Shown one piece after another: positions 3,914 through 33,013 of a stretch of DNA of 36,408 nt; position 1 is the first letter of the stretch; every line of letters begins with the position of its first letter. Origin of the DNA: a virus. A program made the translations under genes and the position numbers. The stretch spans positions 1 to 36,408 of the IMG/VR virus record IMGVR_UViG_3300008117_000193. One strand, 5' to 3'. The notes beneath the pieces were generated by a model, which saw only the letters and a program-made list of their open reading frames with translations, ran no database searches and had not been told where the DNA came from.

Positions 3914-4261
3914 ATGATCGACTACACCAACGCCACCACCGCACGCATCGGTCCCTGGACCGTGCGCCTCGTGTTCAAGGGCGAGCGCTACGGACGAGAC
4001 GGCGTGATGCTCAACGAGCAGACCATGCCGATGGTGGAGTTCTACGACACCGAGCAGGACAAGGCCAAGTTCGGCCCCTGGGGCCAGTTCGTCACGCGGT
4101 ACTACCTCGACACCCTGCTGGAGACCCGCCAGAAGCACCCTGGCTACGCGCTGGCCCTTGACGTGAGCGTCCCCCGCTGGACCGTGAGCGCCAGACACAT
4201 GGCGCTCGTCGAGCACTGGCTGCAGGAGCAGGGCACCTACGCCGCAGCCAAAGCAGACTGA
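3914..4261 (+). CDS. Hypothetical protein
   Basis: This 115-residue protein starts at the ATG at 3914 after AAAGGAGCACCAAC. An N-terminal beta-rich part (WTVRLVFKGERYG, MPMVEFYD) is followed by helices (TRYYLDTLLETRQKH, MALVEHWLQEQ). No family was recognised. Its TGA stop (4259-4261) lies in the left arm of a perfect 25-bp palindrome. Confidence 0.7.
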   Translation: MIDYTNATTARIGPWTVRLVFKGERYGRDGVMLNEQTMPMVEFYDTEQDKAKFGPWGQFVTRYYLDTLLETRQKHPGYALALDVSVPRWTVSARHMALVEHWLQEQGTYAAAKAD

Positions 4262-4303
4262 AATCGCGGATTTCAGTCTTCAACCCCGGGGGCTACGGCC
4301 CCC
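4255..4303. terminator. Perfect 25-bp palindrome and TACG hairpin
   Basis: AGACTGAAATC (4255-4265) and GATTTCAGTCT (4269-4279) form an 11-bp stem around GCG. A GGGGGC/GCCCCC stem with loop TACG (4288-4303) follows, then TTTCTTTT. The second stem with the T-rich tail is a reasonable Rho-independent terminator. Confidence 0.7.
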
Positions 4304-5183: not shown

Positions 5184-5208
5184 CAACTAGGACACGGCGT
5201 CCTAGTTG
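5184..5208. repeat. 23-bp palindrome family, copy 6
   Basis: Perfect arms CAACTAGGAC (5184-5193) and GTCCTAGTTG (5199-5208), spacer ACGGC, followed directly by TCTTTTT. Here the palindrome plus T-run could act as a terminator for the upstream gene. It is the last copy I see in the window. Confidence 0.85.
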
Positions 5209-11646: not shown

Positions 11647-12041
11647 TGGCCCTGAACACGCACCTCAGTAACACCACTGCCTACGCGGCGGTGGTCGAGG
11701 CCCTGGTCCGCACGGGCGGCACAACGCAAGAGTTCTCCGATGCTTCTGGGCTGGCGACCAACACCACGCGCAAGTTCATCCGCGCCCTGCGCAACAGGCA
11801 GCTGGTCCGCGTAGCGCTGTGGCGCCAGGACACCATGGGCCGCTACACAATCGCTGTCTGGGGGTGGGGCAGTCCTCTCTACGACGCCAAGCGCCCACCG
11901 AGGATGACTTCGACCCAACGATCTGCACGACGGAGGATGAAGAACCGTGAGATGTCCGCATTGCAACAAGGACGGGAAGTCCACCGTGCTGGAGAGCCGC
12001 CCACTGGACGGGCAGGTCTGGCGCAGGCGCATGTGCCCTAA
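11646..12041 (+). CDS. Winged-helix DNA-binding protein
   Basis: The N-terminal 75 residues look like a winged helix: a first helix (TAYAAVVEALVRTGGT), a helix-turn-helix (TQEFSDASGLATNTTRKFIRALRNRQLV) and a wing (VRVALWRQDTMGRYTIAVWGWG). That suggests a phage transcription regulator. The last 33 residues overlap the zinc-ribbon gene in another frame and read like shadow sequence, so the functional protein may effectively end near residue 100. The ribosome site is GTGAGGAGG inside the preceding gene. Confidence 0.68.
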   Translation: MALNTHLSNTTAYAAVVEALVRTGGTTQEFSDASGLATNTTRKFIRALRNRQLVRVALWRQDTMGRYTIAVWGWGSPLYDAKRPPRMTSTQRSARRRMKNREMSALQQGREVHRAGEPPTGRAGLAQAHVP

Positions 12042-12177
12042 ATGCCTCAAGACCTTTGTCTCCTGCGAGACAGCGGAACCCGGCATGACCATGCCGACAC
12101 TGACGCAGTCAAGACACCGATTGAAAGATCGCAAGATCAAACCGGAACAATATAACCTCAGATGGGGAAGTTTTTGA
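11947..12177 (+). CDS. NrdR-like zinc-ribbon protein
   Basis: The 76-residue product begins RCPHCNKDG, continues VLESRPLDGQVWRRRMCPKCLKTFVSCE, and stops shortly after. This is the N-terminal zinc ribbon of the NrdR type (CPxC and CPKC, with the Arg-rich RRRxC turn) without NrdR's ATP-cone domain. It may bind DNA as a small regulator. The start is a GTG with GGAGG 10 bases upstream. It overlaps the previous gene by 95 bases. Confidence 0.75.
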   Translation: MRCPHCNKDGKSTVLESRPLDGQVWRRRMCPKCLKTFVSCETAEPGMTMPTLTQSRHRLKDRKIKPEQYNLRWGSF

Positions 12178-12345
12178 TGAGCGGTGGCAGTTGCTACATG
12201 AGCGTTTTATCCTCGCAGATGTGACGCGCTTATGTACCGTTCACGCAGCCGCTCATCCTAATATGCGTGAACGGACCTCCGTAGACTAGAACCCGCGGGA
12301 GGCTAGTAATCTGCGTCTCCTCCCGCACCTAACATCAACAAACCA
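12178..12345 (+). other. Intergenic region before the replication module
   Basis: This 168-base gap holds no gene I can support. Two perfect inverted repeats occupy it: CCGTTCACGCA/TGCGTGAACGG (12237-12247 and 12264-12274) and GCGGGAGG/CCTCCCGC (12295-12302 and 12319-12326). Both enclose loops of exactly 16 bases. The region closes the long overlapping gene chain and precedes the replication genes, so it is a plausible terminator, operator or origin region. The next gene lacks a clear ribosome site. Confidence 0.6.
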
Positions 12346-17918: not shown

Positions 17919-17966
17919 AATCTTTGACAAGCGGGCTAAGTGACCCGTGACACGAAAGGAGTAAGC

Positions 17967-18371
17967 ATGGATCAGAACGAAGAAGCGGACGCCGTGCCGC
18001 TGGACAAGCTGGTTCGCATCTACATGAAGATGCGTGCGAAGCTGTCGGAACTCGACGCAGAAGTCGAGGCCATCAAAGAGCAACAGCAGGTGATCAAGAA
18101 CGAGATCAAGGACCGCATGCGTAGCGTCGGCGCCAAGTCGATGAAGACTGCACACGGTACGGTCTCGCTCACCGAGAAGACGCGCTACTACACCCAAGAC
18201 TGGGACTCGTTCAAGCGCTTCGTCATCGAGAACGATGCTGTTGACCTGTTGGAGAAGCGCATCGCGCAGACCAACATGAAGTTGTTCTTGCAAGAGAACC
18301 CTGCAATGGTTCCCCCGGGATTGAACTCGGACACGGAACTCGACGTTTCCATCCGCAAAGCTGCGGCGTAA
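17967..18371 (+). CDS. Conserved phage coiled-coil protein
   Basis: The 134-residue product has an N-terminal coiled coil (MKMRAKLSELDAEVEAIKEQQQVIKNEIKDRM), then KTAHGTVSLTEKTRYYTQDWDSFKRFVIENDAVDLLEKRIAQTNMKLFL and a PPGLNSDTEL segment. I recognise this as a protein often found beside the DNA polymerase in phages, but its function is not known. AAAGGAG precedes the ATG. It is followed closely by the candidate ssDNA-binding protein. Confidence 0.78.
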   Translation: MDQNEEADAVPLDKLVRIYMKMRAKLSELDAEVEAIKEQQQVIKNEIKDRMRSVGAKSMKTAHGTVSLTEKTRYYTQDWDSFKRFVIENDAVDLLEKRIAQTNMKLFLQENPAMVPPGLNSDTELDVSIRKAAA

Positions 18372-22764: not shown

Positions 22765-22939
22765 GCGTGGTCAGGGCTTCTTCGTCCCCGCCCTGGACCT
22801 AGAGGCTGTGCGAGAGGCGGGACTGCTGGCTGCAGTCCCGCTCCGCTTGAAAGACGCGCGTGCGATGTACGCTATCAGGCAGGGGCGGCTTGGGGTGTTC
22901 TTCTACCGGACATGGCCTGCACCGTCTTCGAGAGCGTGA
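22733..22939 (+). CDS. Small conserved phage-type protein
   Basis: The 68-residue product, RKCFPWDRLERGQGFFVPALDLEAVREAGLLAAVPLRLKDARAM then RLGVFFYRTWP, follows a pattern I know from small phage proteins (CFPWxxLxxGQGFFVP at the front and a GVxFYR end). It overlaps the end of the primase-helicase by 32 bases, and its last 22 codons overlap the end of the giant gene on the other strand. GAGGAC is a weak ribosome site. Confidence 0.7.
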   Translation: MRKCFPWDRLERGQGFFVPALDLEAVREAGLLAAVPLRLKDARAMYAIRQGRLGVFFYRTWPAPSSRA

Positions 22940-25900
22940 TCTTCGCCTGGATCGCCCGGTCAAGCTCCTCGCGCTTCCTCTCAGGTGACAGGTTGGACGC
23001 CCGCACCCTGCGCTCGTAGTCGGTGATCTCTCCCATCTGCTGCCTGAAGGCCCCGGCCACGGACGCCAGCGAAAGCTCGTCGGCCTTCTCCTTGGCGTAC
23101 TGCGCGGCCTTCTCGGACTTGCCCTCCGAGACGAAGCGCTCGTAGGTCTCCTGCGCCTGACGGACCTTGTTCATGCGCTCGTAGACGAGGTCAACGATGC
23201 CGCTGGCGTCCTTGGGTTGGAACAGGGTGCCGATCAGCGGGAGGTCCGAGTAGCGCTTGGTGGCGGGCGCAGGCCCCTCGCCAGCACCGGCAAAGGGTGC
23301 GCTGAGCGCCGCGATGGCGGCCATGCCCATCTGGCCCGTGTAGCCCCGGATCAGGAACTCCAGCTTGATGGGGGAGAAGCCCGTCATCTCGCCAACCGCC
23401 TTGGCAAGCTCCGTGGTGCTGGACTGCGTGCGATACCCCGGCTCCACGCCTTGTTCCCGGGCAGGTTCGATGTCGCGCCCGGTGTAGATCGATGAGCCGA
23501 AGGCCACCTCCAGCGCAGGCTTGACGGCCTGCGGAATGAAGTAGTTCGACAGCCCGGGGACTATCTGCTGGCCGATGTGCTTGAGCGCTTTCTGTGCCTC
23601 TTCTGCACCCTTCTCGTTCGTGGCGATGTTCACAATCGCCTCAGGCAGCGCCTTGAAGATGTAGCCAAGTTCAAACGGGATCGGCAGACGCAGCGGTTCC
23701 TTGATGCCGAACATGTCAAGCGGCACGAACCAGTTGCCGTACTTGTCTTCAGGCTTGGCGTTCTTGTACGCCTCGTCGTCCTGCATGGCCAGGGCGTATG
23801 CGAAGCTCAGGCCAAACAACATCATGCCCCGAACGATGAGCTTCCTGCGCACATTCAAGCGCTCGTTCATCGGCATCTTGCCACGGAACGACCGGTACAG
23901 GACATCGAGGCCCTGGATCTGCGTGTTGAAGAAGGGGATCAACGCGCTGGCCATGTGGATGCTGGGCGACAGCCCGCGCCTGCTGAAGTTCATCGACTCC
24001 AGCGCCATGTACGTGGCTTCCATCTCCGACAGACCTTGCTGCAGGTAGCTCTCGTACTGAGAGCGGCGGGTAAGCGCATCGGCCTGGGCGGCCTTGCTCT
24101 CCAGCCATGCCAGCCCGTTGTTGAAGCTGATCTTGCCCGCCTGCATGTCCTTGATCATCCGGGACATGTCCTCCGGCATGCCGGTGAAGACCTGACCACC
24201 CGTGATGCCGCGCTTCTCCAGAACGTCGGTCTTGCCGATCTGCTTGAGGGCGCTCAGCAGGGGGATCGTGTTTGCACCGCTGGCGATGGAGGCCCCGAGG
24301 GAGTCGCGGAACAACTGCCGAGCCATGTAGACCGGGCTGGCCACGATCAAGCGGCGCAAGAAGCGTGCGGGCATGCCCATGACGCGGATCATGGTCGGGA
24401 ACATCGTCGGGATGCCCGCCAGCCCCTTGACCAGCAGGTCGCTGCTGATGCCCAGCATCTCGGTGTCCACCACGCCGTAGTGCTCGACACCGTCCACCTT
24501 GAAGGTGACCGCGCCTTCCGGCGCTTTGCCGCCCTTGGTCTTGCCGATGGTGGCGAGGCCGACATCCCGGAACTCGAACATCAGGTTCCGCATGGCGAGG
24601 TTGTGCGTCGCCATGTCAATCAGCATCGAGGTGTTCTGGATGCTGCTGGTGATGAAGTCCATAACGGGCTCGTCACCACCAACAAGCTCCTGCAGATGCG
24701 GGCTGTCTTTCAGGTTGCCGATGCGAATGGGCGTCTCTTTGCCAATCAGCAGTTCAGCAACGCCGTCGCGCACGCGGTAGTAGGGGATGTAGTCACTCTC
24801 CTGCAGCAGCTTGTTGGCAAGCTCCCTGCTTATGGCGCCTGTCTGCACGTTGAAGTTCAGCAGGTCGCGGTTGTACTGGTTGTAGATGTCGCGCACCTCA
24901 TTGAAGGCTTCGCGCAACACCGGGTTGGCGTCGATCTCGGCCTTGGCGGCTTTGATGTCCGCTGGCGACGGCATGGAGTCCAGGCGCTTCGACAGGCGGT
25001 CCTTGCGCTTGGTCAGGTTGGTCCGCTGCTCAGCGGACAGCTTCGGCGACTTGAGTTCGCCCTCGATGCGTGCGATCTCCGCGCTGGCCCAGGCGCGACC
25101 GAAGTTCAGCGTGTCGTAGCCCACGCGCTCGCCACGGATCGCCGCCATGTAGAGCGTCACGAGCTTGTTGGCGGCATCGGCGCTGCCCGCTTCCTTGACC
25201 ACATCCTTGCGCTTGAGGATGTCGAACGCCTGCTTCAGGTTGGCGCCATCCTTGGCCTCGATCAAGAACTCCTTGGTGCCGTCACGACGCGTCTTCTCCA
25301 CACGTTCAGGCACACCCACGGTAGCCGCCTGGGAGGTTAAGTGCATGCGCTGGTCGTGCATCCGCAGGTAGTACATCGCCTGCATCGCATCCTTGTCGCT
25401 GACACCCCCGCGCTTGAGCGCCTCTTCGGTCGGGAAGAGCTTGTCGATGTACTGCGTGCGAACGCCCATGCCGAGGAAGTTGTCGCGCAGCTTGTCAACG
25501 AAGCCCTTCTGCCCACCGACGAGGTTGCTTGCTACGCGGCTTGCGGTGGGGAGGTTGCGGGAGAAGAGGATCTCGCCTGCTTCCGCCGGCTGCGGAGCCG
25601 GTGCGCCGGCCACCGCAGGCTGCATCTCCACCTTGGCGGCACCGTAGGCGGTGTTCACGAGGTCGCGCAGGCTGATGCCATTGGGATCCATGCCGAAGAA
25701 CTTGCGCACAGCGGCCTCCATGCGCTGCACGATGCGGCCCAGCCACTGGCCCAGCGGGCTCTTGGTCTGCGGCGTGATCCCAGCGTTGACGGCTTCCTCG
25801 ACGGCGTAGGCCAGCAGCTCGTCGCGCTGCTGGCTCTCGGGGGTCTCAGCGGCCTCCACACGCGCCTGGGCGGCCCGCGCAACACGGCCTTCAGCCGAGG

Positions 25901-28900
25901 TGGCCGGGGCCTTCTGCCAGCGCTCCACGGCGTTCACGAAGGCGTTGTACTGGGCGTCGCCCAGGAGGTTCTTCATCCCGATGTGGGCGCCGACCTCGTG
26001 CAGCAGGACGCTCAGCGCCTGCCCCTGGTTGATGTTCCCGGCGATCAGGAACGCCTTGTTGCCCGCACGGTCAACGAAGCCACGCGCGTCGTCAGGGATG
26101 CGCCCCTCGTACTGCGGGTTGGCCTTGACAAGCGCCTCGACCGAGTCGTAGAGCTGCACCCGACCCAGGTCGGGGAAGTGCGGCTTGAGTTCCGTGCGCA
26201 CGCTGTCGGTAGTGGACGGGTTGGCGGTAGCACCACGGGAGAGTTCGACGTCTTCAAAACCGGCACGGGCGGCAAAAGTCTCCTCAAGCTCCGTCCGCGT
26301 CTTCTCATCAACTGCTTCTTCGGTAGTACGCGCACCACGAGAGGGTTTGGTTTCTGTCGCCGCAGCTTCTTCGAGAGAAATGGCGTCAATATCTTCCGCC
26401 GTTTTAGCGCCTGCACTGACGGCCTCGTCGTACAGGAATTGCTCCAGCGCAGTGAGTTGCTCCTTGCGTTCCTTCTTCTCGAATGCAGCGCGAACAAGCG
26501 CGTTCTTTGCCGCCTCTTCTTTGATACGTGTGTTTTCTGCGATCCGTTCGTCAGCCTTTCGCTGCTGCGAAAGGAGCTTCCGCTCTCGTGCCGTCAGGGG
26601 TTGCCCATTGGCTTGCTTTCCTTCGGCAACAAGCAGATCTTCGGCGTCTTTCTTGGACAGCTCTTCAGGGCCAACACCCTTGCCGCTGTATACCGTCTTT
26701 TGAGGTTTACGGCGCTTCGCTGCTTGTGAACGCGTGAGGGCTTCGCCGGTAGTCTCCCCTGCACCGGCTTGTGCGTCGCGTTGCGATTCAAAAATTGCCG
26801 CAGCTTCGCGTTCACGTGCAGCAATTTCTTCCGGTGTTTCGGGACCGTACGTACGCTTCTCCGCCGCTTGCGGCAAGAAGAAACGCTCTTCAAGATACGC
26901 AATCTTCTGGTAAGTGTTGAGCAGCTCTGCCGTGTCCCGTGCCTGCCCTTTCCAAACCACGCGCTGATTCAACGTCTTGTTGAGCGCGTCGTTGTACTCG
27001 CGCAGTGCAATAGACAGTTCGGGCTCAAGTTGTGAACGCTCCAACGCGGTCTCGGCGTTTTCGTATTCGTACAGCAAGTTGCTGTAGCGGTTGATGAGAT
27101 CCTTTTCGCTACGGAACTCCGCGCCTCTGGAACGTGCAACCGCTTGCCTGATCTTGTTCTCAAGATCTGTGGCGCGGCTGACAAGCCCGTTGAGCACGCG
27201 CTTGGGGTCTTTGTCCAAGAGCGCGAGGTCATCGACGGAGAACTTGGTCTTGATGTTTGCCGCAGTACCCGTTTCACGCGCCAGTCGCTGCGCGTAAGAG
27301 AGCGCAGGCACAATGGTGCCCGACTCTGTACGAAGCTGCATTGCCTCCAGCATGCGCTGGTGCGTCTTCAAGTTTTCGGCGTAATCCGTTGCCTCGTCAG
27401 CTTGCGGTTCAGCCGCAGCTTCGACTTCTTTTGCTTGCCCTTTGAAGACTTCGGCACGCAGCGTACGAAGCCGCTGCTTGGCAGCGACGAGATCATCAGA
27501 GGCTCTTTTGATGGCTTCAGGAGATGCGTTGGCCTTGAGCGTTGCAATCTTGGACTCTGCAACAGCCACCGCAATCTGTGTCTCAAGCCGCCCCATCAAC
27601 GCTTTGTTCCGGGCAATCCGCCCATCAATAGCTTCGAGCTGCCTGCCGAGATCTGCAACAAGTTGACTCAACTCCGGATTCGAAGTTCTCTGTTTCTGGC
27701 TTTCGCTAGCAACAGTCTGCTGCCTCTGAATCTTTACCCGCAGTTCTTTCAGGCCGTTGAGCCACTCCGACGCTTCGCCGTAGCGTTTGTGCAAGTCGCG
27801 CATGCCTGCACGAGCCGTTTCCTTTGCTTGATCAAGCTGTGGAAACTGCCGGTTGTAGATGTCCTCTTCGGCACGTGTAATGCGCGTGAGTTCTTCTTGT
27901 ACGAACTCCAGCGCCTGTTTTGCCCGCGCCTCATCATTGGCTTGCGTGGCAAGCAGTTGGCCTATCTCGTTGAAGTCGGACGCCTTGAGTTTGGGTGCTT
28001 CAGCTTTTTCTCGTTCAACGCGCTCAAGATAAGCGTTGATCAGCGTGCGCTGCCGCGCAAACGCATCCGCAACCTGCTTCAGATTCTTTTCAGAAAGCGT
28101 GAGGGCGCCCATGCCCCCGCGCAAAGCGTCTGTACCCGCCCCCGTCATGCGCAACTCTTTGAGCAGCGCCGCGTTGTTGTTCAGTATGAACTGCGCGTTC
28201 TCAAACGCTTTCTGTTGCTGCTGGTAGACAACCAGCGTTTCTTCAAGCTGCGCAATCTCCTGCTCAAGCGGTTCTATCGCTGCTTCTTTGCGCAGCAGTT
28301 CTCTGGCGTAGCCGTCTTTGACGGCCTTCAAGCGTTCCAGGCGTCTGCGGAATGCTTCGGGCGTGGACGCAATCGTGCCCCGCTCTTTCTCAAGTTCAGG
28401 GAACAGCACCTGCTGCCCCGCGTCTTCTGCTCGCGCCCGCTCCAGCGCGTCCAGCAACGGCTCGATCTCTGAGGCCAAAGACAACGGTGCGCCCTGCGCC
28501 CGGATGGTGCCCTTGCGCGGGGGTTGCGCCAGGAAGCGCCCAGGCTGTCTTTCCGCCTCAGGCCCCGGAGCCATCTGTCGCGCTTCGCGCGGTTGCATCG
28601 GCGTAACAGGCGCTGCGAAGCGCCGGGTGACGTCCGTTTGGCTGCCTCTTTCAGGCGGCAGCACGGGCGTAGCGAAACGATCTGTCGGGACTTCCTGCGC
28701 TTCTCGGGTGGGCTTGCCGATCTGAAATGCGCGTTTGGCGGCTTCGCCAGGAGAAAAACCCTGCGACACAAGCTCGGCATAGCTCCGTTGCCGCGCAAGC
28801 TTGATGTCGTCTTGTGTGCCAAGCGTAGGCTCAACAATGTTCGCGGCGCCGGGAGCGATAGGACGGCGTTGCTGCTCAAGGGTGCGACCTGCCATAGGCA

Positions 28901-31346
28901 GGCCTTCACGGCGACGCTCAGCTCCGGCATACGCATAGGCTGCGTATGCTTCGTCTGACATTCCTTTGGGACGTTTGCGCGGTTGCGCGGTTCCGATTTC
29001 TATCTGCGTGAGCTGCTTGTCCAGCAACTCAAGCAAACCTGCGGTCTGCGCAATGTCTTGTTGCGTACCGCGTGTGGGGTCTTGCACGGTGCGCAGCGTC
29101 TCCAGGCGCATCTCGACATCTGGCAGCAGATTCTCTGCCCTGCGCAGAAGATCGTATGCAGCGTCCGACAGATCGGGGTTCAGCAACGCACGGTTGATGC
29201 GCTCCCGCAGCAGCTTGGTATCCGGCGTCTTGGCAGGAGCAGCTTCGGCTGCACTGCGGCTTTCACCAAACAGCTTGAAGCCTTCGCCAGGAACTCGGCG
29301 CAGTTGCCGTTCTTTCGGCTCTTCTGCCGTGTACGTTACGTCTTGCCCGGTAAGGAGCTGCTGCATCTGGCCAATCGCAGCAGAAGGCTGCGGCGCAGGC
29401 GCAGGCGCCGCACGGGCGGCACGCTCAATGACGGTTTGAAGGTACGGATCTTCTTGGCGCGCTTCAATACGCGCCATGGCTTCAGAAATACGTCCTTCCG
29501 CCCCAATAAGCGTCTCGCGCTGTTCTTTCGTAAGATTCGGATTTTGTAGTGCCGTTCTGATGCCCGCAAGTATTGCTTTTTCATCCGGCAGCCTACGCGC
29601 AGCCATGCGCTGCAGGGCAGTGATCTCCGGGGCCAGACGCTTGCGTTCTTCGGTCTCGGCAAGGCGTGCTTCTTCCGCGCGTGCCGTGTCTTCCAGAGCT
29701 GATGCTTCTTCGGCTTCAAGCTGCGCAATAGGCGAACCCTGCCGCTTTGCGGCCTGCGCGGCGTCGTACGCCTTGAGCTGCGCCTTCAGTTGCGCCAGGA
29801 TACTTCTGCTGACGCTTGCGGATACCCCAGGAATGGGCTCGTCTGCCGCAACAAGCTGTCGTGCGGTGGGTACAGACTCCATCAAGTACGGCACGTACGC
29901 TTTGGCTTGATCTTTCTTGTCCAGCAAATCTACTGATTCATTGCTGTTTGCCAGCGCAATTTGTTGGTTAGCGTATGCCGTGCGTGCAGAAATACTTGGC
30001 TGTGTTCTAAGAGCAGGTGCGGCGCGTTCCGCCATCGCCAGTTCGGGAGGCAGCGCAAGTTCAGGCGTAGCGTCTTGAATGCCGGTCTGTTCCAGCAGGT
30101 ACTGCTGCGGCGTAATGCCAGCGAGCCGCTGCTGCTCCTTCAGCGCAGCGATCTCTTTCTCGCGCGTGACGTACTCACGCGATACTTCTGCCATCTCCTT
30201 CTTGGCAAACGCATCCCTTTCGCGTACCGCGTCACGGTATGCGATCATGGCCGCCGGATCAGCGCCTGTTGGCGGCTTCTTTGCCGCCGCTGCGTCAAGC
30301 TCCGCTTTCTTGGCCACTGCCGCCTTGTACCGCTTGTCAAGGTCAAGCAGGTACTCCGGCGACTGCTTCTTGGCCTCCTCGGCCTCACGCTCAGCCTTGC
30401 GCTTCTCGGCCTCCTGCGCACCCAACAACTCGCGGGCTTTGCCCTGCGCATCACTGCGCTCCAAGTAGCGCCCAGGGACAGCCAGCGTGCCGCCCAAGAC
30501 GGCGCCGCCAATGAAGCTGTCGAAGTACTCGTCTCGGGCCTTGGGGTCGGTCAGGGACAGCCCTGCCTGCGCACGCTCCAGCACCTGCTGCGTAGCCTCT
30601 GTGAGGCCCTCCACGCCCATGGTCTTGCCGGTGGCAGCGGTGTAGTCGATGAGCGTCTTCTTGAGCGCCTGCTCCGCAATCTCCTTGGCCGTCTCCGGTG
30701 TGACCTTGATGCCCGCTTGGCCGAAGATACGCCCGATGCCCGGGATCAACCGCAGGGCTGCGGTATCGAGCACCGCCATGGGCACCGCCGCCAGGGCGGC
30801 ATACCCGAGGTCCGTGTCCGCGAGCTTCTTGCCCTCCTCCATCTGGCGCGAGAGGTTCGTCGCCGTGAACTGCGCCGCCGAGGTCAAGCCCGCTGCGCCC
30901 AACGTAGTGACCAGTGCAGCAGGACCCGTCAAAGGAAGCGTAGTCGCTGCCGCCCCTGCCACCAGGGGCGCCGCCATGTAGGGGATGGAGCCGCCAAGAA
31001 GTTCAAGACCCTTGGTCAGGCCCCACTCTTCGGTGGGCGCGAAGATCTCCCTGGAGCGTTTCTGCGCGGCGTCAAACTCAGCTTGTGCCGTGGCTGCGTC
31101 CTTGAGCCCCAGCCTGCCAAGAAGCGCGGAGATGCCGCCGCCAAGCTCCGTAGCGCCCGAACGCAGCGCAGGGAAGAAGCCAGACTCAGGCTTGGCCGCA
31201 GGGGCGGCGGGCGCCGGAGGTTGCGCAGCTTGACTCTCCTCAAGCGCAGCTTCCTGATACGCCCGCAGCACCGTTGCGTAGTTCGGCGTGCCGCGCTTGT
31301 TCTGGTTGTTGCGCAGCCAATTGGCGTAATCAGCAGAAGTTGCCAT
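22875..31346 (-). CDS. Giant polyvalent-type virion protein
   Basis: The 2823-residue product looks like an ejected internal virion protein of the polyvalent class. Residues 1-300: ADYANWLRNNQNKRGTPNYATV, then long hydrophobic Gly/Ala stretches (a membrane-interacting module) ending GGAVLGGTLAVPGRY. About 300-1690: very long Glu/Lys/Arg/Ala coiled coil. About 1700-1900: a zincin-like region with H1783-E-V-G-A-H1788 and DELLAYAVEEAV. About 1950-2300: helical, with SDYIPYYRVRDG. From about 2330: a C-terminal domain resembling LPD38, RLIVASPVYMARQLFRDSLG. Such proteins are injected with phage DNA and may carry enzymes. The gene covers nearly a quarter of the window. Confidence 0.88.
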   Translation of the reverse strand: MATSADYANWLRNNQNKRGTPNYATVLRAYQEAALEESQAAQPPAPAAPAAKPESGFFPALRSGATELGGGISALLGRLGLKDAATAQAEFDAAQKRSREIFAPTEEWGLTKGLELLGGSIPYMAAPLVAGAAATTLPLTGPAALVTTLGAAGLTSAAQFTATNLSRQMEEGKKLADTDLGYAALAAVPMAVLDTAALRLIPGIGRIFGQAGIKVTPETAKEIAEQALKKTLIDYTAATGKTMGVEGLTEATQQVLERAQAGLSLTDPKARDEYFDSFIGGAVLGGTLAVPGRYLERSDAQGKARELLGAQEAEKRKAEREAEEAKKQSPEYLLDLDKRYKAAVAKKAELDAAAAKKPPTGADPAAMIAYRDAVRERDAFAKKEMAEVSREYVTREKEIAALKEQQRLAGITPQQYLLEQTGIQDATPELALPPELAMAERAAPALRTQPSISARTAYANQQIALANSNESVDLLDKKDQAKAYVPYLMESVPTARQLVAADEPIPGVSASVSRSILAQLKAQLKAYDAAQAAKRQGSPIAQLEAEEASALEDTARAEEARLAETEERKRLAPEITALQRMAARRLPDEKAILAGIRTALQNPNLTKEQRETLIGAEGRISEAMARIEARQEDPYLQTVIERAARAAPAPAPQPSAAIGQMQQLLTGQDVTYTAEEPKERQLRRVPGEGFKLFGESRSAAEAAPAKTPDTKLLRERINRALLNPDLSDAAYDLLRRAENLLPDVEMRLETLRTVQDPTRGTQQDIAQTAGLLELLDKQLTQIEIGTAQPRKRPKGMSDEAYAAYAYAGAERRREGLPMAGRTLEQQRRPIAPGAANIVEPTLGTQDDIKLARQRSYAELVSQGFSPGEAAKRAFQIGKPTREAQEVPTDRFATPVLPPERGSQTDVTRRFAAPVTPMQPREARQMAPGPEAERQPGRFLAQPPRKGTIRAQGAPLSLASEIEPLLDALERARAEDAGQQVLFPELEKERGTIASTPEAFRRRLERLKAVKDGYARELLRKEAAIEPLEQEIAQLEETLVVYQQQQKAFENAQFILNNNAALLKELRMTGAGTDALRGGMGALTLSEKNLKQVADAFARQRTLINAYLERVEREKAEAPKLKASDFNEIGQLLATQANDEARAKQALEFVQEELTRITRAEEDIYNRQFPQLDQAKETARAGMRDLHKRYGEASEWLNGLKELRVKIQRQQTVASESQKQRTSNPELSQLVADLGRQLEAIDGRIARNKALMGRLETQIAVAVAESKIATLKANASPEAIKRASDDLVAAKQRLRTLRAEVFKGQAKEVEAAAEPQADEATDYAENLKTHQRMLEAMQLRTESGTIVPALSYAQRLARETGTAANIKTKFSVDDLALLDKDPKRVLNGLVSRATDLENKIRQAVARSRGAEFRSEKDLINRYSNLLYEYENAETALERSQLEPELSIALREYNDALNKTLNQRVVWKGQARDTAELLNTYQKIAYLEERFFLPQAAEKRTYGPETPEEIAAREREAAAIFESQRDAQAGAGETTGEALTRSQAAKRRKPQKTVYSGKGVGPEELSKKDAEDLLVAEGKQANGQPLTARERKLLSQQRKADERIAENTRIKEEAAKNALVRAAFEKKERKEQLTALEQFLYDEAVSAGAKTAEDIDAISLEEAAATETKPSRGARTTEEAVDEKTRTELEETFAARAGFEDVELSRGATANPSTTDSVRTELKPHFPDLGRVQLYDSVEALVKANPQYEGRIPDDARGFVDRAGNKAFLIAGNINQGQALSVLLHEVGAHIGMKNLLGDAQYNAFVNAVERWQKAPATSAEGRVARAAQARVEAAETPESQQRDELLAYAVEEAVNAGITPQTKSPLGQWLGRIVQRMEAAVRKFFGMDPNGISLRDLVNTAYGAAKVEMQPAVAGAPAPQPAEAGEILFSRNLPTASRVASNLVGGQKGFVDKLRDNFLGMGVRTQYIDKLFPTEEALKRGGVSDKDAMQAMYYLRMHDQRMHLTSQAATVGVPERVEKTRRDGTKEFLIEAKDGANLKQAFDILKRKDVVKEAGSADAANKLVTLYMAAIRGERVGYDTLNFGRAWASAEIARIEGELKSPKLSAEQRTNLTKRKDRLSKRLDSMPSPADIKAAKAEIDANPVLREAFNEVRDIYNQYNRDLLNFNVQTGAISRELANKLLQESDYIPYYRVRDGVAELLIGKETPIRIGNLKDSPHLQELVGGDEPVMDFITSSIQNTSMLIDMATHNLAMRNLMFEFRDVGLATIGKTKGGKAPEGAVTFKVDGVEHYGVVDTEMLGISSDLLVKGLAGIPTMFPTMIRVMGMPARFLRRLIVASPVYMARQLFRDSLGASIASGANTIPLLSALKQIGKTDVLEKRGITGGQVFTGMPEDMSRMIKDMQAGKISFNNGLAWLESKAAQADALTRRSQYESYLQQGLSEMEATYMALESMNFSRRGLSPSIHMASALIPFFNTQIQGLDVLYRSFRGKMPMNERLNVRRKLIVRGMMLFGLSFAYALAMQDDEAYKNAKPEDKYGNWFVPLDMFGIKEPLRLPIPFELGYIFKALPEAIVNIATNEKGAEEAQKALKHIGQQIVPGLSNYFIPQAVKPALEVAFGSSIYTGRDIEPAREQGVEPGYRTQSSTTELAKAVGEMTGFSPIKLEFLIRGYTGQMGMAAIAALSAPFAGAGEGPAPATKRYSDLPLIGTLFQPKDASGIVDLVYERMNKVRQAQETYERFVSEGKSEKAAQYAKEKADELSLASVAGAFRQQMGEITDYERRVRASNLSPERKREELDRAIQAKITLSKTVQAMSGRRTPQAAPA

Positions 31347-31348
31347 TG

Positions 31349-33013
31349 TCAGTTCCCACTAATAATTGCGTCGGCGGCTGCACGGGCGTTGGAGGCCCCC
31401 GCAGATCTTCCAGCGGTGCCAAGCGCTTCCAATTCAGGCGCGTACTGCAAACGGAGTTCTTTTTCGCGAGCCTTCATCAGCGCCAAAAGTGCCGCTTGAT
31501 CTTCAGCCGAGATGATTCCTTCAAGCCGTTTGCGATAGGCCTGCATGATCGGATCGTTGTTGAGCGCGGAAACCAGCCGTGCCGTAGCAGCTTGTGTTGC
31601 GGCATCCGAACGCGAAGGAACAGCAGACATGGCGGCATTTGCCGCCGTTTCTTTGGCGGTAGCTTCGCGCCCCTTGATCGCCAGTTCTGCCTTGTCGTTC
31701 TCGTACTTGTAGCGCAGCGCCGCGAGCTTCTCTGCAGACTCCCGTGCCGTCTTGAAATCGTTTTCTTTCGAGGCCGCGACGTACTTGGCACTTTCGATCT
31801 GCATCTGACGGTAGGTGTTGTTCAGTTGCCGCACCTTGTCAGCTTCGGTGGCACGGTACTGCGCAAGCTCCTTACGCGCCTTCTCTTCTTCGATGTCGAT
31901 GGCAGCGATGCCTTTGGCAAGCGAGCCAAAAAACTGCCCCTTCTTGGGATTGATGTAGCTTGCAAGCAGTGCCGGGCGCTCAGCGCTCTCAAAGAAAGGC
32001 TGATTCGCACGCGCTTCTCTGCGTGCAATTTCTTTGTCAGCCTCTCCCCGCATCTGCGTTGCGTCCTGTTGCACTTGCTGTGTGTACAGGTCTTGCAGAT
32101 CTGCAATTTTCTTTCGCTGCGCAAGCAGGTCAGGAGGAACCGTAGGCGGTGTGTACGCTTGCGTCATCGCCGCAAAAGCCTGCGCAATCGGATCGTTTGC
32201 CGCAGGCCGCTGTTCTTGGGTAGCAGAAGTGCCGCTGCCGCTGCCGCTGCCGCTGCCGCTGCCAGCGCCACGAGTTTCGCGCGTTGTTGGCAGACGTGGC
32301 GGTTCTGCGGGGCCGATGTCTATGTCAGGATCCCCGGTCTTTCCCACAATGGACGACCCGGGAATGCGTGGAGCGGCGGCAGCAGACGGAGCTTGCATCT
32401 CAGCCACGTATTGTCTAGATACTGGGTCTAGCATTCTTACGCCAGCGCGGGGCATGGACGCGGCGGACTGCCCCATGAGAAGCGCCTGCATCGCCGCATC
32501 AAGCGCGGCTTGCGTTTGTGCAACCTTTTCTTGCGCTTGCCGATAGGCTGCAGAATCGCTTCGTTTTGTAGCGGCTGAAAACATGCGTTCGTACTGAAGC
32601 GCCGCTTGATGGTTTTGGCGTGCTTGGTTTAGCCGCTGCTGCAGCTCAGCCACGCTAGGAGAGCCGCCCCCGCTAAGGGCCACAATGCCGCCTGTGGCCA
32701 TGCCACGAGCGGGGGCCATACCGGCGGTTTGTGCTGCACTGGCCAGTATCTGGTCATTCAACGACTGCGGTCCCTGCTGCTGGGACTGCTGCACAGCAAG
32801 CTGGCGTTGCACCGCTTGCTGTGCTTCCAGCTTTTTGCGCACTTCGTCAATGTGCGCCAGCAACGGAATCGACGGATCCCGCTGCTGCATGGCGATAAGC
32901 GTAGGCAGATCTTGGATCTGCCTAAAGTTCTGCACTTTTGCTGCGGGCGTACCTGCGGCTTGCTGCGGCGCAAACTGGAAGCCCTGCGCCTGTCCCGGCA
33001 TAGATGTCTGCAT
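31349..33013 (-). CDS. Internal virion protein with coiled coils
   Basis: The 554-residue product is helical and glutamine-rich. It contains an ATGGIVALSGGGSP segment typical of phage structural proteins, a Gly-Ser repeat linker (encoded at 32231-32263) and a long coiled-coil second half (AAIDIEEEKARKELAQYRATEADKVRQLNNTYRQMQIESAKY). It ends 2 bases before the giant gene begins and is probably its co-ejected partner or core scaffold. No enzymatic motif is visible. Confidence 0.75.
   Translation of the reverse strand: MQTSMPGQAQGFQFAPQQAAGTPAAKVQNFRQIQDLPTLIAMQQRDPSIPLLAHIDEVRKKLEAQQAVQRQLAVQQSQQQGPQSLNDQILASAAQTAGMAPARGMATGGIVALSGGGSPSVAELQQRLNQARQNHQAALQYERMFSAATKRSDSAAYRQAQEKVAQTQAALDAAMQALLMGQSAASMPRAGVRMLDPVSRQYVAEMQAPSAAAAPRIPGSSIVGKTGDPDIDIGPAEPPRLPTTRETRGAGSGSGSGSGSGTSATQEQRPAANDPIAQAFAAMTQAYTPPTVPPDLLAQRKKIADLQDLYTQQVQQDATQMRGEADKEIARREARANQPFFESAERPALLASYINPKKGQFFGSLAKGIAAIDIEEEKARKELAQYRATEADKVRQLNNTYRQMQIESAKYVAASKENDFKTARESAEKLAALRYKYENDKAELAIKGREATAKETAANAAMSAVPSRSDAATQAATARLVSALNNDPIMQAYRKRLEGIISAEDQAALLALMKAREKELRLQYAPELEALGTAGRSAGASNARAAADAIISGN
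32231..32263. repeat. Hexanucleotide microsatellite (Gly-Ser linker)
   Basis: GCCGCT is repeated five and a half times on the + strand, reading Gly-Ser repeats on the coding strand. The length is a multiple of three, so copy changes would lengthen or shorten the linker without breaking the frame. Confidence 0.9.

Follow-up and report, generated by a model that had tools for sequence, protein, structure and literature searches.

The window analysed here is the whole 36,408-nucleotide stretch of the virus record IMGVR_UViG_3300008117_000193 (IMG/VR). It carries a small gene encoding a zinc ribbon and, next to it, a gene encoding a VRR-NUC-type endonuclease (Table 1). The product of the latter has no Pfam match, and the name VRR-NUC rests on an earlier sequence-only reading of this DNA together with annotated relatives. 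Further downstream are encoded DNA polymerase A, a PD-(D/E)XK exonuclease, an SNF2 helicase and a primase/helicase-like protein. Among these replication genes lies a 143-aa gene (17940-18371, + strand) that matches phrog_13900, a family labelled minor head protein, and the - strand contains a 2823-aa ORF (22875-31346) whose sole match is phrog_18222, a family of unknown function. The gap between the zinc-ribbon gene and the VRR-NUC gene is filled by an element that we describe as a predicted structured RNA.

Table 1. The predicted RNA element, its helix arms and the flanking genes (window coordinates)
Feature	Position	Strand	Sequence	Remarks
Small zinc-ribbon gene (NrdR-like N-terminal domain)	11947-12177	+		PF22811, E 1.3e-10; just upstream
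Whole predicted structured RNA element	12176-12326	+		151 nt, intercistronic; covarying homologues, 37 distinct sequences
Helix E, 5' arm	12176-12184	+	GATGAGCGG	exact complement of 12249-12257; covaries
Helix P0, 5' arm	12195-12205	+	UACAUGAGCGU	covariation
Helix P1, 5' arm	12214-12220	+	CGCAGAU	in P0 loop; compensated versions
Helix P0, 3' arm	12226-12236	+	GCGCUUAUGUA	abuts P2; covariation
Helix P2, 5' arm (first repeat)	12237-12247	+	CCGTTCACGCA	perfect repeat; covariation
Helix E, 3' arm	12249-12257	+	CCGCTCATC	inside P2 loop; covaries
Helix P2, 3' arm	12264-12274	+	TGCGTGAACGG	perfect repeat; covariation
Helix P3, 5' arm	12285-12289	+	ACUAG	partner versions compensated
Helix P4, 5' arm (second repeat)	12295-12302	+	GCGGGAGG	perfect repeat; covariation
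Helix P3, 3' arm	12303-12307	+	CUAGU	inside P4 loop (pseudoknot); covariation
Helix P1, 3' arm	12309-12315	+	AUCUGCG	inside P4 loop (pseudoknot); covariation
Helix P4, 3' arm	12319-12326	+	CCTCCCGC	perfect repeat; 19 nt before VRR-NUC start codon; covariation
VRR-NUC gene leader	12327-12345	+	CACCTAACATCAACAAACCA	G-free, without Shine-Dalgarno (SD) sequence
VRR-NUC-type endonuclease gene, 99 aa	12346-12645	+		phrog_93 endonuclease, E 1.2e-15

The sequence-only reading had pointed to two perfect inverted repeats in this gap, and both are present, each with 16 nt between its arms; the two loops share their length and differ in sequence. Single repeats of this kind are not exceptional compared with shuffles. 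Perfect repeats with arms of at least 8 and loops of 3-30 gave 68 entries in the window against a mean of 25 in 20 dinucleotide shuffles, and those with arms of at least 11 gave a mean of 0.7 entries in the same number of shuffles (nested versions of one repeat being separate entries in window and shuffles alike). Two equal-loop repeats within 60 nt were seen in none of 20 dinucleotide shuffles of the window, and RNA folding of positions 12220-12340 predicted both stems (z = -2.4 against dinucleotide shuffles). The signal that exceeds chance is the covariation across relatives.

A protein search with the VRR-NUC sequence gave 80 viral loci, and when the first 16 were read side by side before the start codon, the same element with changed letters was recognised in 15 (all except L014). 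Scans of viral contigs with exact patterns added L090, L091, L093, L094, L097, L107/L108, L110, L117, L118, L128 and L133. A sequence-free descriptor, consisting of P1, P3 and P4 complementarity at fixed spacing, detected a second large group (L017 and kin) in which P1 is CACAGAU/AUCUGUG or AACAGAU/AUCUGUU; it had no match in shuffled loci and one extra, unsupported match in the window at 29658. A covariance model built from P0 and P4 only matched 68 places in 62 sources (accepted matches of 48 bits or more), including the window at 12185-12333 with 129 bits, and contributed L025, L049, L056 and L058. Descriptor and model together placed the element at 41 of the 80 VRR-NUC viral loci; among the 39 remaining, L048, L051, L073 and L074 (less than 210 nt upstream) were kept out of the model search. 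The 68 model matches were reduced to 41 rows by setting aside 27 with a score equal to that of a kept row (mostly duplicate retrievals, judged by score), and the rows to 37 distinct elements for the P1 and loop counts; the element start in the first copy of L010 was placed by hand.

Two loci, L078 and L080, pass a relaxed descriptor and fail the model, and were not counted. The scan of bacterial genomes used a single P1 type, and the chromosomal matches (L102-L104, to a single pattern) were taken as chance because none passes the helix descriptor. Among cultured phages, a 27-nt match of L017 in Pseudomonas phage Y12 was also attributed to chance, and R1 compared with the complete records of KPP25, RHph_TM3_14A, Rollin and Xp15 yielded no more than weak matches (best E 0.0098, 16.5 bits). 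The members lie on contigs of uncultured viruses, probably mostly from freshwater.

As judged from these relatives, the two repeats are P2 and P4, two of six helices in one RNA of about 150 nt, with arms in the 5' to 3' order E5-P0a-P1a-P0b-P2a-E3-P2b-P3a-P4a-P3b-P1b-P4b. The RNA is predicted to be multiply pseudoknotted: two upstream segments (P1 and P3) pair with the P4 loop, and the 5' end (E) pairs with the P2 loop. Both loops of what had been read as two separate stems are thus base-paired with other segments of a single molecule. The element begins 61 nt upstream of the region that had been singled out, and the 5' arm of helix E shares bases with the stop codon of the zinc-ribbon gene (12175-12177). 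The equal loops had been taken to imply a structural role. The covarying arms support such a role, and the argument from equal length fails: the P4 loop measures 16 nt in 34 of the 37 distinct elements (exceptions L097, L015 and L118) because it is filled by P3b (5 nt), an A, P1b (7 nt) and 3 nt, while the P2 loop, which contains E3, ranges from about 4 to 27 nt. On this comparison, the shared 16 nt of the P2 and P4 loops is a coincidence. With the P4 loop near-fixed and the P2 loop variable, a cruciform or a pair of operators in which the equal loops carry meaning was rejected. Of the candidates proposed earlier, a regulatory RNA is the one supported. Structured RNAs often carry extra hairpins, and we found such additions at P0 in L025, L049 and L056 and in the P4 loop of L015 and L097. 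The element also keeps conserved unpaired stretches.

Comparative evidence makes the six-helix structure near certain. Across 19 distinct sequences, the true partners of all six helices (E, P0, P1, P2, P3 and P4) form better mean duplexes than any of 20,000 partner shuffles, as they do in a test with 13 sequences; the compared sequences are kin, and these outcomes are therefore not probabilities. Alignment A2, with nine sequences, has changes on both sides in 17 of 32 pairs and a covariation score of 0.383 against 0.145 when shuffled (0 of 500 shuffles reach the real score). Its cells pair in 88.5% of cases against 74.9% when shuffled, and sliding the partners by 1-3 columns lowers pairing to 38-54%. 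P1 occurs in six versions and is complementary in 37 of 37 distinct elements, a seven-pair P1 having been sought near ATG and AAT without a single failure. The 5' arm of P3 is ACUAG, CCUAG, CCCAG or CCGCG, compensated by CUAGU, CUAGG, CUGGG or CGCGG in its partner, and between the tandem copies of L006 helix E differs as AACGGU/ACCGUU and AGCGGU/ACCGCU. The sequence-only reading had proposed an alignment with relatives, and the repeat arms do covary in related phages. Eight extra pairings were also tried and none clearly covaries: J2/3-P4a, the candidate switch helix of an alternative fold, gave p 0.68, and the P1b/P4b region with the leader gave p 0.014, uncorrected for the eight tries. The helices contain 12 G.U cells on the + strand against 6 A.C cells, and one P0 position is U.G in six of the nine sequences of A2, which favours an RNA made from the + strand, in the direction of the genes.

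No match to Rfam 15 was found in the window at the gathering cut-off, and with lax filters the best E values for three members were 6.1, 1.6 and 2.3, all to unrelated families. In searches of the literature in PubMed Central, nothing was recognised as this RNA. The RNA family is apparently undescribed. The DUF2800 RNA is an orphan structured-RNA candidate of phages of a similar kind, based on comparison only and located upstream of phage genes. Going by the passages of PMC2864571 devoted to them, the manA and wcaG motifs are orphan structured-RNA candidates of phages, and they resemble the element in being comparison-only folds from phage or metagenomic DNA that lie upstream of phage genes. 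Unlike these motifs and the DUF2800 RNA, the element has no Rfam match and shows its own gene context and helix order.

In the 41 rows, the element points toward a close ORF or, in first tandem copies, toward the second element, except in L117, where the contig stretch ends. It has the same orientation as, and lies just before, a gene, the placement by which cis-acting leaders and riboswitches are recognised. The next gene varies and encodes VRR-NUC, DUF3310 (PF11753; L017 and L133), DUF6378 (L031), a zinc ribbon (L090) or another small protein (unnamed in L118/L128). The DUF3310 protein of L133 includes an HTH-like part, and the zinc-ribbon match of L090 (E 2.7e-5) falls slightly below the Pfam threshold; in L133, DNA polymerase A is encoded further downstream. 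Since the next gene is often other than VRR-NUC, a VRR-NUC-specific substrate or operator was rejected; what stays constant is the position at the start of the replication genes. Searches across entire records gave a single copy each, a tandem pair in the record of L009, and none in 8 of 22 records. L022 lacks the element at the same site between flanks that match L093 at 237 of 259 and 160 of 179 positions, and L039 lacks it with 496 of 524 upstream positions matching the window, thus the element is optional. The idea that E5 always contains the stop codon of the gene before it fits the window, L005, L093 and L107 and was abandoned, as the zinc-ribbon stop of the L017 group is about 10 nt further up. 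In the three loci examined, neither a sigma-70-like promoter (the search covering such sites rather than phage-specific promoters) nor a terminator-like site was found at the element, which is therefore probably part of a longer message.

The VRR-NUC gene had been described as having no visible ribosome site, and the absence of a SD is confirmed by an anti-SD duplex energy of +2.1 kcal/mol for its leader. Leaders behind the element bind the anti-SD less tightly than leaders of these gene families at other places (median -1.15 against -4.05 kcal/mol, Mann-Whitney p 0.007); the leaders are not phylogenetically independent. Leaders behind the element are also richer in A/C (0.79 against 0.61) and more often G-free (7/28 against 0/30, p 0.004), and they lack an SD-like 4-mer in 16/28 cases against 15/30 elsewhere. 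The comparison of anti-SD pairing excluded L053 and L071, whose start codons are unclear, and the first of any tandem copies. Good SDs are present in L020, L097, L094 and L012, and the distance from element to start codon varies among members. A start codon lying close by is nothing unusual in compact phage genomes, a point against taking it as a sign of control in cis. In L053 (once) and L071 (twice), the leader is lengthened by a short, G/C-rich hairpin unit copying the end of the element (CCCCTCACTAAT).

The element may well be a cis-acting intercistronic control RNA of about 150 nt, a reading that we hold with middling confidence. It would be made within a polycistronic early mRNA, fold between two genes and exert its effect in cis ahead of the DNA-replication genes, where it would most likely alter translation of the next cistron(s) or mRNA processing, possibly upon binding a phage or host factor. 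Against this reading, the next gene does not need the element, which can be absent between almost identical flanks. Because the SD-less share is alike in the two sets of leaders and several members have good SDs, we commit only to control in cis. The preQ1-II and SAM-II riboswitches are compact pseudoknots near a start codon with conserved unpaired bases. The element is similar in these respects but is not consistently followed by a metabolic gene, and none of the extra pairings tried gave a covarying alternative fold. A strongly supported, defined fold that recurs in uncultured phages at the head of DNA-replication genes makes precise predictions (six helices, compensatory mutants), and the close relatives that lack it provide a natural comparison with and without the element. 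If it is true that ribosomes are recruited or the replication operon is controlled, the RNA would stand out among the control RNAs of tailed phages by its complexity.

The main rival to action in cis is a trans-acting phage ncRNA (decoy, counter-defence RNA or sRNA) that would be cut from the early polycistronic transcript and merely parked between genes; we regard it as possible but doubtful. A cis regulator of one particular gene seldom has so variable a neighbour; this variability would fit a trans-acting RNA, as would the optional presence between flanks about 90% identical, the compact, highly paired fold and the tandem duplication in L006-L011. Wherever it was seen, though, the element opens the replication block and points the same way as the genes, neither a promoter-like nor a terminator-like site belonging to it was found in the loci examined, and no processing site is known.

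Translation of a second cistron started without SD offers another, unlikely, explanation, in which the element would recruit ribosomes as the intergenic-region IRES of dicistroviruses does. The two are alike by description: both are intercistronic, of about 150-190 nt in the IRES and about 150 nt here, with several pseudoknots and a stop and a start codon nearby. Roughly half the leaders are SD-less, and the weaker anti-SD pairing and G-free leaders behind the element agree with such a role. The element belongs to a DNA phage, though, and many members keep their SD; the SD-less share judged by cut-off is the same on and off the element, the leaders are related by descent and the spacing to the start codon is not constant. 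The boldest form of this reading is quite unlikely: a natural bacteriophage intergenic IRES that would itself recruit the bacterial ribosome, and so start the second cistron without an SD, by convergence with dicistrovirus IRESs.

An antitermination RNA, with which RNA polymerase would read through the replication operon, is similarly improbable. In phage HK022, put consists of two simple stem-loops at a promoter and acts in antitermination. A phage RNA that acts in cis in front of a long operon would explain the indifference to the identity of the next gene, and loss of the element is tolerated. In contrast to the plain stem-loops of put, the element is knotted and lies mid-cluster, some 12 kb after the start of a series of + strand genes, and no promoter-like site was found close before it in the three loci examined. 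That a self-cleaving ribozyme splits the message between the genes on either side seems very improbable: the compact multi-pseudoknot fold and conserved unpaired stretches would fit, but there is no Rfam match, no invariant cleavage-like site was recognised and the element exceeds most small ribozymes in length. A DNA element (a cruciform, a pair of operators, an origin or folded single-stranded DNA that VRR-NUC or a replication protein would recognise), of which the cruciform cut by VRR-NUC had been proposed by the sequence-only reading, is hardly credible despite the perfect inverted repeats and adjoining replication genes, given that the pseudoknotted P1 and P3 cannot coexist with P4 in a duplex cruciform, that G.U pairs are found in the helices, that many of the next genes are not VRR-NUC and that some relatives with the same kind of gene cluster lack the element.

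Other perfect inverted repeats with arms of 10-11 are located in the window at 4255-4279, 5184-5208, 22817-22841 and 32791-32824, and those with loops of 3-5 could be terminators. In L006-L011, two tandem copies of the element precede the VRR-NUC gene (for example, L006:2646-2808 and L006:2822-2984) and differ by compensated changes. Finally, L118:639-786 and L128:568-715 have an element with a weakened P4 (5 pairs, loop of 19), and the 68-aa product of their next gene shows a weak match to an antitoxin family (phrog_4692, E 0.0024).
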